Assembly (NCBI GenBank): GCA_018969355.1
Contig: JAGWYO010000001.1
Location: 1 to 64,000, forward strand
Source: Actinomycetales bacterium
GTDB lineage: Bacteria > Actinomycetota > Actinomycetes > Nanopelagicales > Nanopelagicaceae
Length of the DNA: 64,000 bases
Direction: 5' to 3'
Position numbers and translations under genes: made by a program. The notes under the pieces were generated by a model. It was not told where the DNA came from. It was given only the letters and a program-made list of their open reading frames with translations, and did no database searches. Shown here one piece after another: positions 14,633-64,000 of this stretch (position 1 is the first letter of the stretch; each line of letters begins with the position of its first letter).

Positions 14633-14639
14633 GTCGCTT

Positions 14640-14652
14640 AGCCTAATAGACT
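14640..14652. promoter_or_regulatory. paired divergent -10 boxes for PIG-L gene and pcrA
   Basis: In the 27-bp gap, TAGGCT (minus strand, 14645–14640) and TAGACT (plus strand, 14647–14652) each lie 7 bp from their start codon, one base apart. The geometry is nearly the same as in the EEP/nudC gap. Confidence 0.6.
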
Positions 14653-14659
14653 CACCGCT

Positions 14660-39131: not shown

Positions 39132-40211
39132 TTAAATACGCTCTCCAGTTGTTGAGTTAAACAAGTGAACTGCATTTGGATTTGCAGTAACAGTAATTGT
39201 TTGACCAGCCTTTGGCGGATTCTTTGGATCCCAGCGAACAATGATCTGTGCGCCTTCATCTGAAGCATTTGCAAACTTAACATTTGTGTCAGCTGGCTTT
39301 CCGTAAACGAAAGCATCTGAACCTAGTTCTTCTACTACTTCAACCAAAACATGGAAGCCATTAGATGCTGGTGTGAAGCCCTCTGGGCGAACGCCAACAG
39401 TTACAGATGAACCTGCAGATGCTGGAACATCAATTGCCAGATCTCCAAGCATTGCCTTACCGCCCACGATTGGTGCGTTGAGCAAGTTCATAGCAGGAGA
39501 TCCAATAAAGCCTGCAACGAAAGCATTTGCTGGGTTGTCATAGAGATTACGAGGTGTGTCTACTTGCTGAAGCAAACCATCCTTAAGAACTGCAACGCGA
39601 TCGCCCATAGTCATAGCTTCAACCTGGTCGTGTGTTACGTAAACAGTCGTGATTCCTAAGCGACGCTGCAATGCAGCGATCTGTGTACGAGTTGCAACGC
39701 GCAACTTCGCATCAAGGTTTGATAGAGGTTCGTCCATAAGGAAAACCTGAGGTTCGCGAACAATTGCGCGACCCATAGCAACGCGCTGACGCTGTCCACC
39801 TGAAAGAGCTTTTGGCTTGCGCTCTAGGTATGGCTCAAGGTCAAGCAGTTTTGCTGCTTCTAGAACGCGGCGTTCGCGCTCTTCTTTTGGAGTTCCAGCG
39901 ATTTTAAGTGCGAAGCCCATGTTTTCTGCAACTGTCATGTGTGGGTATAACGCATATGACTGGAATACCATCGCGATATCGCGATCTTTTGGTGCAACGT
40001 TGGTAACGTCGCGATCACCGATCAAGATTCTTCCGTTATCGACTTCTTCAAGTCCTGCCAACATACGAAGTGATGTTGACTTACCGCAACCTGATGGGCC
40101 GACTAAAACCAAAAACTCACCGTCATTGACAGTGAGATTTAATTTATCGACAGCAGGTGCTGTTGTTCCTGGATAGATACGTGATGCGGCTTCGAAAACT
40201 ACTGATGCCAT
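39132..40211 (-). CDS. msiK: MsiK/UgpC/MalK-type sugar ABC transporter ATPase
   Basis: 359 aa. Walker A GPSGCGKSTS, Q-loop MVFQSYALYPHMT, signature LSGGQRQRVAMGRA, Walker B VFLMDEPLSNLD, His switch TVYVTHDQ, then the C-terminal OB/TOBE regulatory domain (SVTVGVRPEGF). No permease or binding-protein gene is nearby. In Streptomyces the single MsiK ATPase serves several sugar importers, and an orphan gene like this fits that role. Shine-Dalgarno ggagag; the long 5' region can form hairpins. Confidence 0.88.
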   Translation of the reverse strand: MASVVFEAASRIYPGTTAPAVDKLNLTVNDGEFLVLVGPSGCGKSTSLRMLAGLEEVDNGRILIGDRDVTNVAPKDRDIAMVFQSYALYPHMTVAENMGFALKIAGTPKEERERRVLEAAKLLDLEPYLERKPKALSGGQRQRVAMGRAIVREPQVFLMDEPLSNLDAKLRVATRTQIAALQRRLGITTVYVTHDQVEAMTMGDRVAVLKDGLLQQVDTPRNLYDNPANAFVAGFIGSPAMNLLNAPIVGGKAMLGDLAIDVPASAGSSVTVGVRPEGFTPASNGFHVLVEVVEELGSDAFVYGKPADTNVKFANASDEGAQIIVRWDPKNPPKAGQTITVTANPNAVHLFNSTTGERI

Positions 40212-40299
40212 GAGATTGCTCTCCTTCTCCGGGCAGGTACGTGCCCGACGGTCCGTGGATGAAGGTGATGGTCCGGGTGGACCAACGCAGCGAAGGTTA
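40212..40299 (-). promoter_or_regulatory. promoter and hairpin-rich 5' leader of the sugar ATPase gene
   Basis: TAACCT (40299–40294, minus) is a possible -10, with a start near 40287. Reading the minus strand, the leader then holds GGTCC-ACCC-GGACC (40284–40271), a second GGACC (inside 40240–40265), and CGGGCA-cgtacc-TGCCCG next to the Shine-Dalgarno. The first GGTCC can pair with either GGACC, so two folds are possible. Confidence 0.35.
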
Positions 40300-50663: not shown

Positions 50664-51847
50664 TGATTGATTTCAACAACCCTGCATTTGTCGCTAATCC
50701 ATATGAGCAGTTAAAAGCACTTCGCGATATCGGCAAACCTGTTTGGCATGATGGAATGCAAATATTCCTAGCTGCCCGCCATGTCGATGCTAATGATGTA
50801 TTTAGAAATAAGTCATTAGGGCGTATTTTCACAGATAAAAAGCCAGAGTTTGAGTGGGAAACATTTAATTGGCTGCACTCAGATTCAATTCTAGATAGCG
50901 AGCCCCCTAAGCACACACGTCTGCGTTCCTTAGTGGCAAAGGCTTTTAATCGAAACAAAATTGAAGGAATGCGACCAGCGGTTGAGCGCATCACGCAGCA
51001 ACTATTAGAGGCCATAGATGAGAAAGTGACATCTGGAGAGAGATTTGATCTGATTGCCGATTATGCCGAGCCACTTCCTGTGAAAATAATTGCTGACTTG
51101 CTAGGCTTTCCAGAATCCGAAGAACATTTACTTCGCCCCTGGTCACAGGCAATTGTCAAGATGTATGAAGTTAATCCTTCGGAACAGTATCAATTAGAGG
51201 CCAAGAAAGCTGCTGGCGAGTTTGCCGAATATGTGCGCAACTTAGCTGAACACCGTAAGTCAAATCCAGGTCAAGATCTCATTACAGATTTAGCTATGGT
51301 TGAAGAAAATGGCGAGAAATTAAACTCTCATGAACTTGTTGCAACTTGCGTGCTTTTACTCAACGCCGGACATGAAGCCAGTGTGAATGCATTTGGAAAT
51401 GGAATGGTGGCAGCCCTTGAGCGCCCTGAGCAAGCAGATTTATTGCGCAAAAACTCACGAGCAATAACAGAGACAGCCCTTGAAGAATTCATGCGATTTG
51501 ATGCCCCACTTCACTTATTTGAGCGCACAGCAACCGTTGATACTGAGCTGGGAGGCATAAAGATAGAGAAGGGGCAGAAGATTGCAGCCCTGATTGGCTC
51601 AGCTAATCGTGACTCGGCAGTATTTGAGCGTGCAGATGACATGGATCTCACACGTGATCCCAACCCACACATTGGTTTTGGTGCAGGCATTCATTTCTGT
51701 TTAGGCGCACCTCTTGCCCGCCTAGAAATGAGCGTTTCGTTGCCAGCGCTATGGGAGAAATATCCCAACATGCAACTATCTGGTATTCCAGTGCGCCGAC
51801 CTACATTTGTATTACGAGGTTATGAAAGCGTTTCTATTTCGGCATGA
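50663..51847 (+). CDS. cytochrome P450 in the nucleoside operon
   Basis: 394 aa, soluble bacterial class. Heme-binding FGAGIHFCLGAPLAR (Cys346), K-helix EEFMRF (Glu275/Arg278), C-helix HTRLRSLVAKAF and I-helix LLLNAGHEASVN. Ala239 replaces the conserved Thr of the acid-alcohol pair (usual AGHETT), a change known from P450eryF, where the substrate's own hydroxyl helps catalysis. It is translationally coupled to add, so it is produced with the nucleoside enzymes. Substrate unknown; a nucleoside or a derivative is only an inference. No ferredoxin or reductase gene is near. The last 28 bp overlap the convergent rbsK. Confidence 0.93.
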   Translation: MIDFNNPAFVANPYEQLKALRDIGKPVWHDGMQIFLAARHVDANDVFRNKSLGRIFTDKKPEFEWETFNWLHSDSILDSEPPKHTRLRSLVAKAFNRNKIEGMRPAVERITQQLLEAIDEKVTSGERFDLIADYAEPLPVKIIADLLGFPESEEHLLRPWSQAIVKMYEVNPSEQYQLEAKKAAGEFAEYVRNLAEHRKSNPGQDLITDLAMVEENGEKLNSHELVATCVLLLNAGHEASVNAFGNGMVAALERPEQADLLRKNSRAITETALEEFMRFDAPLHLFERTATVDTELGGIKIEKGQKIAALIGSANRDSAVFERADDMDLTRDPNPHIGFGAGIHFCLGAPLARLEMSVSLPALWEKYPNMQLSGIPVRRPTFVLRGYESVSISA

Positions 51848-52716
51848 GATGGATATGAGGATTGCGCACCTTTTCGTGTGACACTCATGGATGCAACTTT
51901 GATTCCTAACTTCATCGCATCTTCTGGATTCTTTCCATTTGCAAGTGCAAAAGCAAAAACTCCCACAAAAGCATCTCCAGCTCCAGTGGTATCTACCGCG
52001 TTAACTTTTGGCGCACTCACGCGAGTAAGATTTCCATCGGAAGTAATTAAAACAGCACCTTCTGACCCCAGAGTAACAATTGAATTCTTACCCGGTCTAA
52101 AACTCTTAAGTACGTCATCACTTGTTGGCTCTTGACCACAGAGTTCTTTGAACTCGGTTTCATTAGGAATCATCCAGTCTGTTACTGCTAAAAGTTCTTC
52201 ACTCAGTGGTTGGTAAGGCGCTGGGTTGAGGATTGTTGTACAACCCCGTTTTTTTGCTGCAGAAAATGCAGCCAGAGTTACCTCTTGCTTTATCTCACAC
52301 TGTGCAACTACGACTGCCAGATCAGTGATTGACTCAATTGCTTGAATAGCTTTTTGAGGTTCAATCTCATGATTTGCGCCAGGAATGATTACGATTCGAT
52401 TCTCACCGTTGGCATCAACCCAGATATGTGCAACACCATTGGGAGTATCACTGCGCTCTACATACTGCGAACCAATCCCAAGTTTCTTGAAGTTTTCAGC
52501 TATTGAGTCACCAAATAAATCCTTTCCTAGTTTTCCAACAAAGTGAACTTCGGCTCCGCAGTGAGCGGCAATAACGGCTTGATTGGCCCCTTTGCCACCA
52601 AAACCAGTGGTAAAAAGCTCGCCTTCTAAGGTTTGTCCGGGAGCCGGAATTACTCTGACATAGGCAGTTAAATCAATCATGGCACTACCAACTACCGCTA
52701 TTACTGCTTTACTCAT
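51820..52716 (-). CDS. rbsK: ribokinase (PfkB family)
   Basis: 298 aa. VVGSAMIDLTAYV, the FTTGFGGKGANQAVIAA motif, NETEFKELCG, and C-terminal VDTTGAGDAFVGVFAFALA with the catalytic Asp and anion hole. It phosphorylates ribose (or deoxyribose) to the 5-phosphate, which connects the nucleoside hydrolase product to the pentose phosphate pool. Ribokinase rather than deoxyribokinase is the simplest call, but the two are hard to separate. The ATG at 52716 is 6 bp from its TAGCCT box. Confidence 0.9.
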   Translation of the reverse strand: MSKAVIAVVGSAMIDLTAYVRVIPAPGQTLEGELFTTGFGGKGANQAVIAAHCGAEVHFVGKLGKDLFGDSIAENFKKLGIGSQYVERSDTPNGVAHIWVDANGENRIVIIPGANHEIEPQKAIQAIESITDLAVVVAQCEIKQEVTLAAFSAAKKRGCTTILNPAPYQPLSEELLAVTDWMIPNETEFKELCGQEPTSDDVLKSFRPGKNSIVTLGSEGAVLITSDGNLTRVSAPKVNAVDTTGAGDAFVGVFAFALANGKNPEDAMKLGIKVASMSVTRKGAQSSYPSHAEIETLS

Positions 52717-52721
52717 ACCGC

Positions 52722-52728
52722 TAGGCTA
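52722..52728. promoter_or_regulatory. shared bidirectional -10 element TAGGCTA (rbsK / nucleoside hydrolase)
   Basis: Plus strand TAGGCT (52722–52727) lies 7 bp before the hydrolase ATG. Minus strand TAGCCT (52728–52723) lies 6 bp before the rbsK ATG. The two TANNNT boxes overlap by 5 bp in an 18-bp gap, so both mRNAs should be leaderless. Confidence 0.6.
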
Positions 52729-52734
52729 TCGCTT

Positions 52735-53688
52735 ATGGAAAAAACTTCAATGATTCTTGATGTTGATACTGGTGTTGACGATGCCTTTGCGGTGCTTTTT
52801 GCCGCAATGCATCCAGCAATCAACTTACTTGGAGTTACCTGCGTAGATGGCAACACTAATGTTGACCAGGTTGTTGCAAATACTTTGAAAGTTTTAGATG
52901 CAGCCGGTGCTGGAGATATTCCTGTTGCCAGAGGCGCCGTTCGTCCGCTTCTTGGCAAATCAGAGTATGCCGAGTATGTGCATGGCGCAGATGGAATGGG
53001 TGATCTTGGAATTACACCATCACTTCGAAAAGTTGATACTCGCGCTGCTATTGAACTTCTTCGCGATTTGATTGAAGAATCAAAAGAGCCAGTAACACTT
53101 GTGCCACTTGCTCCTCTAACAAATATTGCTTTATTTTTGCGAGCATTTCCAGAGACAGCTAAGAAACTACATCGAATTGTTTTGATGGGTGGATCAGCAT
53201 CTGCTGGTAATGCAACTGCTGCAGCCGAGTTCAACGTTTGGCACGATCCAGAGGCAGCGGCAATTGTCTTCCAAAGCGGTGTGCCAATTACGATGTATGG
53301 ATTAGATGTTTTTATGCGCCCAGGTGCAACACGTGAGAATGCAAAGCAATTACTCAATTGCTCTGACTCTGCTGCTCAATTTGCTGGAACGTTGATACAA
53401 GCCTTCATTGAGCGCTTACATATCTCTCCCATTACTTTGGGGGATTATGGCGCTGTGGCTTGCGCAATACATCCAGAGCTATTTACAACTGAAGTCTTTG
53501 ATGTTGTAGTCGACACATCTCAAGGACCAGCGCGCGGGCAAACCATCTGTGATCGTAGAGCACCATTTCTAAAGTCCATCGAGCCAAATGATTTAACTGA
53601 CTCTGCTGCAGTCCGGGTAGTTCTAGATTTAGATGTAGAAGCAGTTGAGCAATTGTGGTTTAAAACCATTGATAAAGGCTGGCTATAG
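52735..53688 (+). CDS. inosine/uridine-preferring nucleoside hydrolase
   Basis: 317 aa. N-terminal calcium and ribose site ILDVDTGVDDAFAVLF, then GVTCVDGNTNVDQVVANTLKVL, VLMGGSASAGNATAAAEFN (binding Asn/Glu region) and WHDPEAAAIVF. It hydrolyses ribonucleosides to base and ribose, and ribokinase next door takes the ribose. Its stop overlaps the stop of the convergent short ALDH gene by 6 bp. Confidence 0.93.
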   Translation: MEKTSMILDVDTGVDDAFAVLFAAMHPAINLLGVTCVDGNTNVDQVVANTLKVLDAAGAGDIPVARGAVRPLLGKSEYAEYVHGADGMGDLGITPSLRKVDTRAAIELLRDLIEESKEPVTLVPLAPLTNIALFLRAFPETAKKLHRIVLMGGSASAGNATAAAEFNVWHDPEAAAIVFQSGVPITMYGLDVFMRPGATRENAKQLLNCSDSAAQFAGTLIQAFIERLHISPITLGDYGAVACAIHPELFTTEVFDVVVDTSQGPARGQTICDRRAPFLKSIEPNDLTDSAAVRVVLDLDVEAVEQLWFKTIDKGWL

Positions 53689-58527: not shown

Positions 58528-59358
58528 CTAGAATAACTTCGGTATTACCCCTTTGAGAAGAGCGCCCATTCGATCTGCAGCGGCCTTTCCAGCGGCAATC
58601 ACTTCTTCATGGTTTAGTTTTTCGCCAGTAACTCCAGCAGCTGCGTTAGTAACTAATGAGATTCCAAGTACTTCAGCACCGAGTGCATGAGCAGCAATTG
58701 CTTCAGGAACTGTGGACATACCTACTAAATCTGCGCCCATTGTGCGCATCATTAAAATCTCTGCGGGAGTTTCATACGTTGGTCCGCGCCAATGCACGTA
58801 GACACCTTCTTCAAGTGAAGAATCCTCCTTTTTAACAATTTCACGAATACGCTTGCTATAGAGATCAGTTAAATCAACAAAAGTTGCGCCAGATAGTGGA
58901 GATACTGCCGTCAATGAAATGTGATCACGAATAAGAACTGGCTGGCCAACTTTGTAGCTCTTATTTATGCCACCACATGCATTAGTTAAAATAATTACTC
59001 TGCATCCAGCTTTGACTGCTGTTCGAACGCTATGCACTACAGGTTCAACACCTTTACCTTCATAGAGATGCGTGCGCCCCAAAAAGACAAGTGCTCGTAG
59101 CTTCTTACCATTTGACTCAATTTCGTAAGATCGAACTTTTCCTGAGTGCCCTTCCACTGTTGGAGGAAGAAATCCAGTTATATCTTCAGCGTTACATTCA
59201 TAGTCCGGAGCTCCCAACGCATTAACTGCGCTTACCCAACCAGAACCCATTACTAATGCAACATCATGAGTAGCAACCCCTGTGCGCTCTGTTATTTCTT
59301 TAGCAGCAGCGGCCGCTGCGGCTAGTGGATCCGAATACAGAAGCTGGCTATTTGTCAT
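58528..59358 (-). CDS. punA: purine nucleoside phosphorylase
   Basis: 276 aa, trimeric PNP type. [90 protein letters not shown] and [22 protein letters not shown]. It cleaves inosine and guanosine (and deoxy forms) with phosphate. ATGA overlap with accA3 and a 4-bp gap to the mutase place it inside the acyl-CoA carboxylase operon. Confidence 0.95.
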
Positions 59359-61073
59359 GCATCAATGATGTCACAAAGAGCTGTTCCACTAGAAACTGTG
59401 GCCCCTATGACTGCGCTCAAATTACTAATCACACCAGCCTTATGTGCCATTAGCGGTTGTTCCATTTTCATCGCTTCTAGAACGATTACTAAATCCCCAA
59501 TTTCAACTCGATCACCTTCATTAACTGCGATCTTCACAACAGTTCCTTGCATGGGGCTTGTGAGGGCAGCGCCAGCTGAGCCACCAGCCATGGATTGTTT
59601 TGCGCGATGGCGTTTGACTACTGGTTTGGGTGCATGCACTAAAACCTCAAATCGCTTTCCATTAACTTCAGCCACTAATTGTTCAGCTGCCATATGTGTT
59701 TCGAGGGGCACGACTGGTGCGTGATAAGAAAGTATGTCGTTATTAAATTCATTTTCAATGTAGCTGGTATAAACCTTGAAATCTTCTGTAAAAGCTGAAT
59801 CTTCCACAATTGCACGGTGGAAAGGTAGAGCTGTTGCTAGGCCTTCAACTGTGAATTCTGCTAACGCGCGACGAGCACGTCCAATAGCTTGTTCTCGCGT
59901 TGAACCGGTAACAATGAGTTTAGCTAACAATGAATCAAAGTTACCGCCGATGGTGTCCCCATTTCTAAAACCAGCATCAACTCTGACACCAGGTCCTGTC
60001 GGGATAATCCACTCAGTAATTCGCCCTGGTGCAGGTAAGAATGATCGTCCTGGATCTTCACCATTAATACGAAATTCAATTGAGTGTCCACGAATTTCTG
60101 GGTCATCAAAGCCAAGTGCTTCGCCCATTGCAATTCTAAATTGTTCGCGCACTAAATCAATTCCTGTAATTTCTTCACTCACGGGATGTTCTACTTGCAA
60201 GCGAGTATTAACTTCAAGAAAAGAAATCGTTCCATCAAGGCCAATGAGAAATTCACATGTGCCTGCACCAATATATCCGGCCTCTTTCATGATGGCTTTA
60301 CTTGATCGATAGAGCTCATCAATCTGGGCTTGACTTAAAAATGGAGCCGGTGCTTCTTCCACTAGTTTTTGATGCCGGCGTTGTAGTGAACAATCTCTCG
60401 TGCTTATGACTACTGCATGACCGTGCTTATCCACCAATACTTGAGTTTCAACATGGCGTGGCTTATCTAAATAGCGTTCTACGAAACATTCACCGCGGCC
60501 AAAGCCGCTAATTGCTTCACGCACAGCAGATGCAAATAGCTCAGGAATCTCTTCCATCGTGTGGGCAACCTTTAATCCACGTCCACCACCACCATGAGCA
60601 GCCTTGATAGCAACTGGTAATCCATGTTCTTTCGCAAAAGCTAAAACTTCTTCATAGCCTTGAACTGGATCTTTAGTTCCAGCAACCAGTGGAGCCCCAG
60701 CCTTAGCTGCGATTTTGCGTGCAGAGACTTTATCGCCTAAGGCACGAATTGCAGCAGGAGGAGGTCCAATCCATATAAGACCAGCATCAATAACGGCCTG
60801 AGCAAAGTTTGCATTTTCAGATAAGAATCCATAACCAGGATGAATAGCATCTGCACCTGATTGCTGGGCAGCGTCTATGATTTTTGCAATATTTAAATAT
60901 GTTTGTGTTGCGGTAGTTCCATGCAAGGAATAAGCAGTATCGGCCATTTGAGCATGAATTGAATTGCGATCTTCCTCTGAATAAACCGCAACACTTTCTA
61001 AGCCATGATCTTTACAAGCGCGAATTACTCGTACTGCAATCTCACCTCGGTTGGCAATTAATACGCGCTTCAT
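59355..61073 (-). CDS. accA3: acyl-CoA carboxylase alpha subunit (biotin carboxylase + BCCP)
   Basis: 572 aa. Biotin carboxylase: [38 protein letters not shown]-grasp loop [13 protein letters not shown], and [18 protein letters not shown]. The C-terminal BCCP domain has the biotinylated Lys in [17 protein letters not shown]. It carboxylates biotin for the AccD5 transferase to make malonyl-CoA or methylmalonyl-CoA. It overlaps maf by 4 bp. birA, which would attach its biotin, is at the far end of the cluster. Confidence 0.95.
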
Positions 61074-61672
61074 TGCATCACCTTAGCCTCAGGCCAGGAA
61101 TAGCCAAGTTGCGTAAAGGCTTTTCTCACAAAAGGCATAGAGATTCCAACTACGTTTGTGTAGTCACCTTCAATTGAAGGGATAAAGGGGGAACTAAATC
61201 CATCTAGAGTGAAACCACCAGCAACATGTAAAGGTTCACCAGTAGCAACATAATCTTTGACTTCTGCATCAGTCATGTTGTCAAAGGTCACCTTTGTGGT
61301 AACGATGCTTGATATCTCTTTATCTTTTGTCGTATCAATGATGCAGTGACCAGTGTGGAGTAGCCCAGAATTACCGCGGACTCTTGAAGCGCGTTCAATT
61401 GCAATTTCTGGGGTAGCCGGCTTACCTAAGGACTGTGAATCAAATTCAAACGTTGAATCACAACCAATAATTATCGCTGGAAAATCTAGTTGCTCCCGAA
61501 TTGTGTGAGCCTTAGTTATAGCTAGAGCAATAACCATATCGGCAGGTGTCATGGAGTTGAAGAATTCTGTTTCCTCATCAACATGGCTAACCATGATTGT
61601 TGGCTTTAAGCCAGCAGACTCAAGTAGGCGCCGTCTGGACACAGATGCAGAAGCTAAAACTATTTTTGGCAT
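61070..61672 (-). CDS. maf: Maf-type nucleotide pyrophosphatase
   Basis: 200 aa. [18 protein letters not shown] at the N-terminus, then [21 protein letters not shown] and [20 protein letters not shown]. It hydrolyses non-canonical or pyrimidine NTPs. In the usual GCDS-K-P and AG-F conserved spots the residues are kept. Between accE and accA3 as in mycobacteria. Confidence 0.93.
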
Positions 61673-61675
61673 TGC

Positions 61676-61858
61676 CTATGAATTCTTTCGCGCGCCGAAA
61701 GTAATTTGATGAGGTAAACCTTGTCGTAATTGCGGCAGACCATAAATACTTCTGCGGATTACAGGCTTTAGTTCTTCACGCTTATGTTGTGCCATAGCAA
61801 CTTTCAGAGCTTCTAGCTCCTCGGGAGTTGGATTTCCTTTGGTGATTGAAAACTCCAT
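61676..61858 (-). CDS. accE: acyl-CoA carboxylase epsilon subunit
   Basis: 60 aa. ITKGNPTPEELEALKVAMA is the family's characteristic first helix, followed by the basic tail. It binds AccD5 and stimulates the actinobacterial carboxylase complex. TAATG overlap with accD5 and a 3-bp gap to maf. Confidence 0.85.
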   Translation of the reverse strand: MEFSITKGNPTPEELEALKVAMAQHKREELKPVIRRSIYGLPQLRQGLPHQITFGARKNS

Positions 61859-63429
61859 TACAGTGGAATGTTTCCATGTTTACGGGCGGGTAATGTGTCG
61901 CGCTTGGTGCGTAAAGTTCTAAAAGCTTTCGTGATGTATGCACGAGACTGATTTGGTTCAATGACTGTGTCGATTGTTCCGCGCTCTGCAGCTAAGTATG
62001 GATTTGCCAATGATTCATTGTATTCATCGATTAACTCAGCTCTTGCAGCTATTGGATCTTTTGCTTCAGCAATTTCTTTTCGATACAAAATGTTAACTGC
62101 ACCTTGTGCTCCCATTACTGCAATCTCAGCACTTGGCCACGCAAAGTTAATATCACTACCAAGGTACTTAGATCCCATAACGATAAATGCTCCGCCATAG
62201 GCTTTACGAGTAATAAGTGTTACAAGTGGTACTGATGCTTCTGCATAGGCATAGAGCAATTTAGCTCCGCGGCGAATGATTCCATCCCATTCTTGTTCAG
62301 TACCAGGCAAGAATCCAGGCACATCAACAAGTGTCAGGATAGGGATATTGAATGCATCGCAGAAGCGCAAGAAACGTGCAGCTTTCTCGCTGGAGTTAAT
62401 ATCTAATGTTCCAGCCAATTGATTTGGCTGGTTTGCAATGATTCCAATAGTTTCACCCTCTATTCGGGCAAATCCAACAACTATATTTGGCGCATAGAGT
62501 GCATGGACTTCTAGAAATTCTGCTTCATCAACTAGCGCTTGAATCAAAACCTTCATGTCATATGGCTGATTGGGACTATCTGGAATCAAAGTATCCAGTG
62601 CGATATCAGATGCTTTCTTTTCCAAAAGTTCTGTTGGTGGAAGATGTGGAGCTCTATCCATGTTATTTGATGGCAAATATGAAAGTAGCGCCTTAACGTA
62701 ATCAATTGCATCAGCTTCATTTTCAGCTAAGTAGTGTGAATTACCAGTACGAACATTATGAGTACGAGCACCACCTAGTTCTTCCATTCCTACTTCTTCG
62801 CCAGTGACTGTTTTGATTACATCAGGGCCGGTAATAAACATATGTGAAGTTTCATTGACCATCACCGTAAAGTCAGTGAGTGCAGGTGAATAAGCAGATC
62901 CACCTGCGCATGGACCAAGAATTAATGAGATTTGCGGAATAACACCAGAGGAGCGAGTATTGAGGCGAAAGATTTTTCCGTAGCCAGATAGAGATGCAAC
63001 ACCTTCTTGAATTCGTGCGCCGCCGGAGTCATTAATTCCAATAAGTGGAATTCCACTTTTTAGGGCAAACTCGGCAATCTTTACAATCTTTTCGGCATGG
63101 ACCTCACCAAGAGATCCACCCATAATGGTGAAATCTTGAGAATACAAAGCAACAGGTCGTCCATCTACAGTTGCTGTTCCAATAACAACACCGTCGCCGT
63201 ATGGGCGATTATTTTCCATCCCGAATTGTGTTGAGCGGTGGCGCGCGAACTCATCAATTTCTGTGAATGAATCTGGATCGACCAACATTTCAATACGCTC
63301 ACGGGCAGTGTTCTTACCCTTTGCATGCTGTTTTTCAACGGCGCGTGCAGAACCGGCGTGTACGGCTTCCTCAACGCGCGCACGCAGATCTTCGATTTTC
63401 CCGGCAGTTGTATGCAGATCACGGCTCAT
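61858..63429 (-). CDS. accD5: acyl-CoA (propionyl-CoA type) carboxylase beta subunit
   Basis: 523 aa from the ATG at 63429. [40 protein letters not shown], then crotonase-fold carboxyltransferase motifs [28 protein letters not shown], and C-terminal [20 protein letters not shown] and [12 protein letters not shown]. It transfers CO2 from biotin to acetyl- or propionyl-CoA. A longer start at 63444 would begin inside the -10 box; TACCGT lies 6 bp before 63429. First gene of an apparent nine-gene operon down to the short ALDH. Confidence 0.94.
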
Positions 63430-63434
63430 ACCCC

Positions 63435-63441
63435 TACGGTA
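63435..63441. promoter_or_regulatory. shared bidirectional -10 element TACGGTA (accD5 / birA)
   Basis: Plus strand TACGGT (63435–63440) is 7 bp before the birA ATG at 63448. Minus strand TACCGT (63441–63436) is 6 bp before the accD5 ATG at 63429. The gap is 18 bp, the same size and spacing as at rbsK/nucleoside hydrolase. Confidence 0.6.
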
Positions 63442-63447
63442 CATGTC

Positions 63448-64000
63448 ATGGGCATTGAAATGCTAAGAGCGGCACTTGATAAGTCACGTATCAACTCTTT
63501 GATTACGCAGTACTGGCGAGTAAGCGTGGTTGATGTCACCACCTCAACCCAATCCGATCTTGCAGCATTAGTGCGAAGTGGAAAAGCTAAACCAGGTGAT
63601 GTAATTGCTGCCAATTTTCAAAGTGCGGGCCGAGGAAGGTTATCGAGAACATTTGAAGCTCCAAAAAATTCTGCACTTCTATTCTCTTTCTATATTCAAC
63701 CAAAAAGGAAAAAAGAAGATTGGGGCTGGATAGCTTTGATTGCCGGCATATCAGTTGCGCAAGCATTAGGTAAAGTTAAAGCAACTGTTAAATGGCCAAA
63801 CGATATTCTGGTGAATGAAAAAAAGATTTCTGGATTGATTGCAGAAATAGTCGGTGACGGAGTTGTAATTGGAATTGGAATAAACGTTGGTATGTCTCTA
63901 GAGGAACTTCCTGTCTTAACTGCCACTTCACTGGCGATAGAAGGAGTCAGCGATATAGATAGAAATGAGATTTTGGCAAAAGTTCTGTCTCAATTTGAAA
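63448..64000 (+). CDS. birA: biotin-[acyl-CoA carboxylase] ligase, 5' part (cut by window end)
   Basis: Reads open from the ATG at 63448 (or 63460) to the window end, about 184 residues. [35 protein letters not shown] (biotin-binding GRGR variant), [20 protein letters not shown] and IGIGINVGM are the biotin protein ligase core. There is no N-terminal DNA-binding domain, so it is the monofunctional type. It biotinylates the BCCP of AccA3. The start at 63448 is favoured because it lies 7 bp from TACGGT. Confidence 0.93.

Follow-up and report, generated by a model that had tools for sequence, protein, structure and literature searches.

How little DNA can lie between two divergent genes and still provide a promoter for each of them is the question raised by the 18 base pairs (bp) that separate birA, which encodes a biotin ligase, from the acyl-CoA carboxylase gene accD5 in a Nanopelagicaceae genome. 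The window analyzed here is the 64,000-bp stretch formed by bases 1-64000 of contig 13 of this genome, a 1,401,825-bp assembly in 83 contigs from the freshwater, small-genome acI lineage. On the plus strand, the gap runs from the accD5 start (CAT, 63427-63429) through ACCCC, TACGGTA and CATGTC to the birA ATG (63448-63450). Judging from its sequence, we give a probability of about 0.8 to the reading that this gap is a minimal bidirectional leaderless promoter. A single symmetrical -10 element, TANNNTA, would be read as TANNNT on both strands, and RNA polymerase with the housekeeping sigma factor would bind it in either orientation, one at a time. Transcription would then begin 6-7 nucleotides (nt) from it, at the first nucleotide of either birA or the accD5-accE5-maf-accA3 operon, and both mRNAs would be leaderless and translated from a 5′-terminal ATG or GTG. 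As neither a -35 element nor a leader is present, the promoter would fill the entire gap, and two-way transcription is suggested by the conservation of both flanking operons together with the fact that no other promoter site fits the gap. A sigma-70 scan that included the -35 element found no -35/-10 pair of the sigma-70 type.

Conservation across relatives provides the decisive evidence. In all 74 related loci in which both genes could be read (27 distinct sequences, with some genomes present twice), the gap is exactly 18 bp long and carries the TANNNTA core, without a base gained or lost. The entropy of the core T, A, T, and A is 0, compared with a mean of 1.01 bits in the left spacer, 0.58 bits in the right spacer, and 1.09 bits at silent positions of the neighboring accD5, meaning that variation in the left spacer is close to that of silent codon positions and lower in the right spacer. 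The spacers are variable, and no Shine-Dalgarno sequence (AGGAG) is conserved in the gap across the related birA/accD5 loci. The BirA relatives at 84-87% identity come from freshwater actinobacteria of the acI lineage, IMCC19121 and SCGC AAA044-N04 among them, and records of Ca. Planktophila and Nanopelagicaceae matched at lower identity. Genera g36 and g39 of the family have the element with GTG as the accD5 start, and genera g33, g34, and g37 mostly lack its TANGGTA version, which was the only version read there. The sequence-only reading of this DNA had considered the gap a compact bidirectional leaderless promoter rather than a product of chance; the geometry it described recurs in 74/74 loci, and the two-way transcription is still a prediction.

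The distance from the core to both start codons fits a leaderless-type spacing found genome-wide. With start codons picked by coding potential only, TANNNT was located 6 or 7 nt before the start of 63/242 operon-first genes, versus ~6 expected (~3 per position further upstream; binomial P ~1e-44), and internal operon genes showed a smaller peak (42/290). Shine-Dalgarno sequences formed a separate minority class in the host genome. By this spacing profile, TANNNT 6-7 nt before a start is the predicted mark of leaderless genes in this genome, and it matches the signature published for Actinobacteria (PMC3160421, PMC3898074). The TA-led leaderless genes known from Actinobacteria (Zheng 2011, PMC3160421; Cortes 2013, PMC3898074; Shell 2015, PMC4633059) likewise have TANNNT ~10-12 bp before ATG or GTG, no Shine-Dalgarno sequence, and no -35 consensus. 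However, these papers treat single promoters, unlike the shared core proposed here. Cortes 2013 reports divergent promoters in close juxtaposition as a common finding and names prpD/Rv1129c as a divergent pair in which both genes are leaderless, and its accessible portion describes no shared 18-bp core (PMC3898074).

The birA/accD5 gap has counterparts elsewhere. As the sequence-only reading had noticed, the gap between rbsK and a nucleoside hydrolase gene has the same length, the same TANNNTA element, and the same spacing (CAT-ACCGC-TAGGCTA-TCGCTT-ATG at 52714-52737), both gaps having an identical 5-7-6 layout. Core and 18-bp gap were kept in 10/12 orthologous rbsK/hydrolase pairs, and the remaining two (G009 and G014), read by eye, had a different -10 overlap, of the +4 type described below, and a gap of ~23 bp. 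The same reading had proposed to look for enrichment in short divergent gaps, and this was found: among 190 divergent pairs, with 16 palindromic 7-mer cores compared and spacers of 5-7 nt required on both sides, TANNNTA occurred in six pairs, where it lies 5-6 nt from both starts, GTNNNAC in one, and the other 14 cores in none. This set comes from genes called in 672 kb of the host genome and, for five relatives (G040, G014, G043, G037, and G042), in ~1.27 Mb altogether. Part of the own-genome stretches had been picked for holding the pattern, which biases the own count and leaves those of G040 and G014 unaffected. Each of these six gaps measures 17 or 18 bp, and together they represent four unrelated gene pairs, namely birA/accD5, rbsK/hydrolase, a MobA-like protein/phosphoesterase pair (names read from the sequence), and nth/crp-like in three genomes. 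Once conditioned on real divergent starts, the TANNNTA geometry is clearly non-random. In three distant acI genomes, the nth (endonuclease III)/Crp-family regulator pair shares a TANNNTA core, with a gap of 18 bp at L032:4922-4939 and L164:8281-8298 and of 17 bp at L162:1901-1917, a 1-bp difference that stays inside the allowed 6-7 spacing.

The distances between opposing -10 elements are quantized. In 53 divergent pairs with a leaderless signature on both sides, six had a -10/-10 offset of -1 (TANNNTA, gaps of 17-18), five an offset of +4 (ANNNTANNNT, gaps of 22-23), and five one of +7, all others being larger; none of the 53 had an offset between -1, +4, and +7 or a gap <17. The two boxes overlap only at -1 and +4, the very offsets at which the T and A of both coincide, and the predicted start sites are then 18-19 and 23-24 bp apart. 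When each of two -10 elements must lie 6-7 nt from its start, common bases are possible only with gaps of 17-19 (TANNNTA) or 22-24 (ANNNTANNNT), and one shared core fixes four bases instead of six. No other layout for two leaderless divergent genes is as short or as cheap, which may be why the geometry recurs in unrelated pairs, and since only four bases must be fixed, convergence on this solution could explain the recurrence. The proposed label of a reusable promoter is therefore adequate for a recurrent geometry, seen in four unrelated pairs, and not for a copied module. Examples of the ANNNTANNNT class, with gaps of 22-23, are L022:5250-5271, L147:9877-9899, and those upstream of the hydrolase in L217 and L218. 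We also observed back-to-back leaderless -10 elements (TAGCCTAATAGACT) at 14633-14659, between divergent genes for an LmbE-like deacetylase and a UvrD-PcrA-like helicase (names read from the sequence), and a near-identical TAGCCTAATAGACT element in G014 (L166, L167) and G042 (L275).

Bidirectional promoters have been described in other bacteria, and the following comparisons cover the accessible parts of two reports (PMC12825309, PMC10268837). Start sites on opposite strands are 7-25 bp apart, most often 18 bp and also 10 and 23 bp, with shared -10 bases, and the 18-bp spacing is put down to reciprocal -7T/-11A pairing. The birA/accD5 core resembles the promoters of Warman and Grainger (Nat Microbiol 2021, as cited in both reports), which have one symmetrical -10 element in which -7T and -11A coincide and need no -35 element; at birA/accD5, the -10 bases of both strands coincide in the same way, in TANNNTA. 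Unlike in those promoters, each predicted start site here coincides with the start codon of a conserved operon, and the whole intergenic region would be the core promoter itself. The predicted distance between the two sites is 19 bp, one side being 7 nt, versus the published ~18, and the second class of ~23 is also present in these genomes; agreement with the published distances of 18 and 23 was not built into the analysis. The element would combine leaderless genes with bidirectional promoters, both of them known already, and its value would lie in the minimal, frozen form and quantized geometry. Among the papers accessible to a literature search, none joined Nanopelagicales or acI with leaderless genes, or birA and accD5 with a divergent arrangement.

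The most serious competitor to a shared promoter is a pair of independent leaderless promoters whose -10 elements overlap only because streamlining squeezed the gap, without functional coupling and with the sharing itself unselected. We consider this somewhat short of an even bet. It agrees with the many short divergent gaps in these genomes that have leaderless -10 elements on both sides at many distances, and with the lower informational cost of a shared -10, whereas a gap in which no base came or went across the relatives and a core that is still symmetrical in 9/13 outgroup loci with longer gaps speak for the sharing itself. The two readings are largely compatible, as they differ only in whether coupling is selected. 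That a 7-mer coincided by chance in two short gaps is hardly credible: TACGGTA itself is not over-represented in the window (1 versus 2.0 expected), but a centered core arises in shuffles of each gap with a probability of only 0.1-1%, and the invariance of the core among relatives already refutes the idea. Probabilities from shuffling the six 17-18-bp gaps were not combined into one P-value, as these gaps had been preselected as both-leaderless.

BirA represses biotin genes in some bacteria, and the core of the host genome, TAC-G-GTA, is a perfect 3+3 inverted repeat that could be a repressor operator, for example, an autoregulatory site of the BirA or GntR/TetR type. We regard this as very improbable, since relatives (TAAGGTA) and other pairs (TAGGATA, TACTTTA) have lost the inner symmetry and keep only the outer TA/TA, and 7 bp is short for an operator. 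A BirA-type operator in particular was rejected, as this BirA is without the N-terminal winged-helix DNA-binding domain and longer BirA profiles align to it only from about position 64. A local DNA hairpin at the gap was likewise rejected, its stability not being in excess (z 0.35). Only slightly less improbable is that the starts were mis-assigned and one or both genes have leaders and Shine-Dalgarno translation. The open reading frame list does offer upstream ATGs at 63444 for accD5 and 63412 for birA, but both are stopped in-frame in relatives: a TAG shuts the accD5 frame in ~20 of the 27 distinct sequences (CTA at gap positions 13-15), and another directly follows the alternative birA ATG in relatives such as L128, L129, L131, and L132. 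With the upstream alternatives closed, the gap-adjacent starts are taken as the real ones, and birA begins with ATG or GTG directly after the 18-bp gap in 73/74 loci.

Several points weigh against the bidirectional leaderless promoter. Both the bidirectionality and the exact start sites are predictions. The single exception among the birA starts, in L244 (G026), is a TTG behind an intact 18-bp gap, and mycobacterial leaderless translation does not accept TTG (PMC4633059). The GG in the core (gap positions 9 and 10; 63438 and 63439) and the C after it (position 13; 63442) are invariant in the 27 distinct sequences and are not explained by TANNNT alone. The independent cases are few, with four unrelated pairs. 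A genome-wide search for the bare exact-geometry pattern showed no enrichment (8 places versus 11 for the reversed pattern); this count is uninformative because divergent gene starts are absent from about half of these 8 places.

The arrangement of the two genes is older than the gap. The sequence-only reading had credited the promoter with joining the biotin ligase to its carboxylase substrate operon, and the two are indeed neighbors, but the link is an ancient actinobacterial synteny that the promoter did not create: birA and accD5 are divergent neighbors in 16/20 outgroup Actinomycetia regions and in four further Nocardioides/Arachnia loci. In these 20 outgroup loci, the gap is longer and accD5 mostly starts further from the core, in some behind a Shine-Dalgarno-like GGAGG, whereas in Nanopelagicaceae the gap is cut to 18 bp. 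TANNNT lies 6-8 nt before the birA start in 13 outgroup loci, and the next base is A, giving TANNNTA, in nine of them (P between ~1e-5 and 1e-3, according to how frequent A is taken to be, with 19% in the host genome; the outgroups are mutually related). It is plausible, although suggestive only, that the shared core came first and that the accD5 leader was lost later in the acI lineage. A more far-reaching and rather doubtful version places the symmetrical core in the Actinomycetia ancestor and has the loss of the carboxylase leader in acI produce a frozen 18-bp unit, in which competition between polymerases sets the ratio of the ligase to its substrate operon. Bidirectional promoters of E. 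coli have low basal activity and interfere little as long as neither side is activated (PMC12825309), so strong coupling of birA to the carboxylase should not be taken for granted.

If this reading holds, a complete two-way promoter may be as small as 17-18 bp between two start codons, and, should competition between polymerases matter, a single DNA element would balance an enzyme against its modifying ligase with no regulator involved. Conservation here stands in for transcriptome data in a hard-to-culture group, and the rule that confines overlap of leaderless -10 elements to the gap classes 17-19 and 22-24 could help to call start codons more accurately in compact genomes of actinobacteria.

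Table. Positions in the window of the birA/accD5 gap, the companion gap, and their flanking genes.
Feature	Position	Strand	Basis
Divergent intergenic gap, 18 bp, predicted to be the whole core promoter	63430..63447	.	Sequence; exactly 18 bp in 74/74 related loci
Symmetrical shared core TACGGTA (TANNNTA)	63435..63441	.	T, A, T, A invariant across 27 distinct relative sequences
Predicted -10 of birA, TACGGT, ending 7 nt before ATG; predicted transcription start, A at 63448	63435..63440	+	Sequence and leaderless spacing profile
Predicted -10 of the accD5 operon, TACCGT, ending 6 nt before ATG; predicted transcription start, A of ATG at 63429	63436..63441	-	Sequence and leaderless spacing profile
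birA, biotin--[acetyl-CoA-carboxylase] ligase, 252 aa, runs past the window end	63448..64000	+	TIGR00121 E=1e-46, above cutoff; PF03099
accD5-like acyl-CoA carboxylase carboxyltransferase beta subunit, 523 aa	61858..63429	-	PF01039 E=1e-196
60-aa accE5/epsilon-like open reading frame that lies between accD5 and maf and overlaps the stop of accD5	61676..61858	-	Putative, from position and sequence style
Maf-family protein, same operon as accD5	61070..61672	-	PF02545
Biotin carboxylase/BCCP fusion (accA3-like), presumed biotinylated substrate of BirA	59355..61073	-	PF02786, PF00289, PF02785, PF00364
Companion gap rbsK/nucleoside hydrolase, 18 bp, core TAGGCTA at 52722-52728	52717..52734	.	Sequence
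rbsK, ribokinase	51820..52716	-	TIGR02152, above cutoff
Rih-type nucleoside hydrolase	52735..53688	+	PF01156

Elsewhere in the window, an msiK RNA cis-regulatory element (RF01747, 62.5 bits) was found at 40215-40273 on the minus strand, upstream of the gene at 39132-40211 on the same strand.
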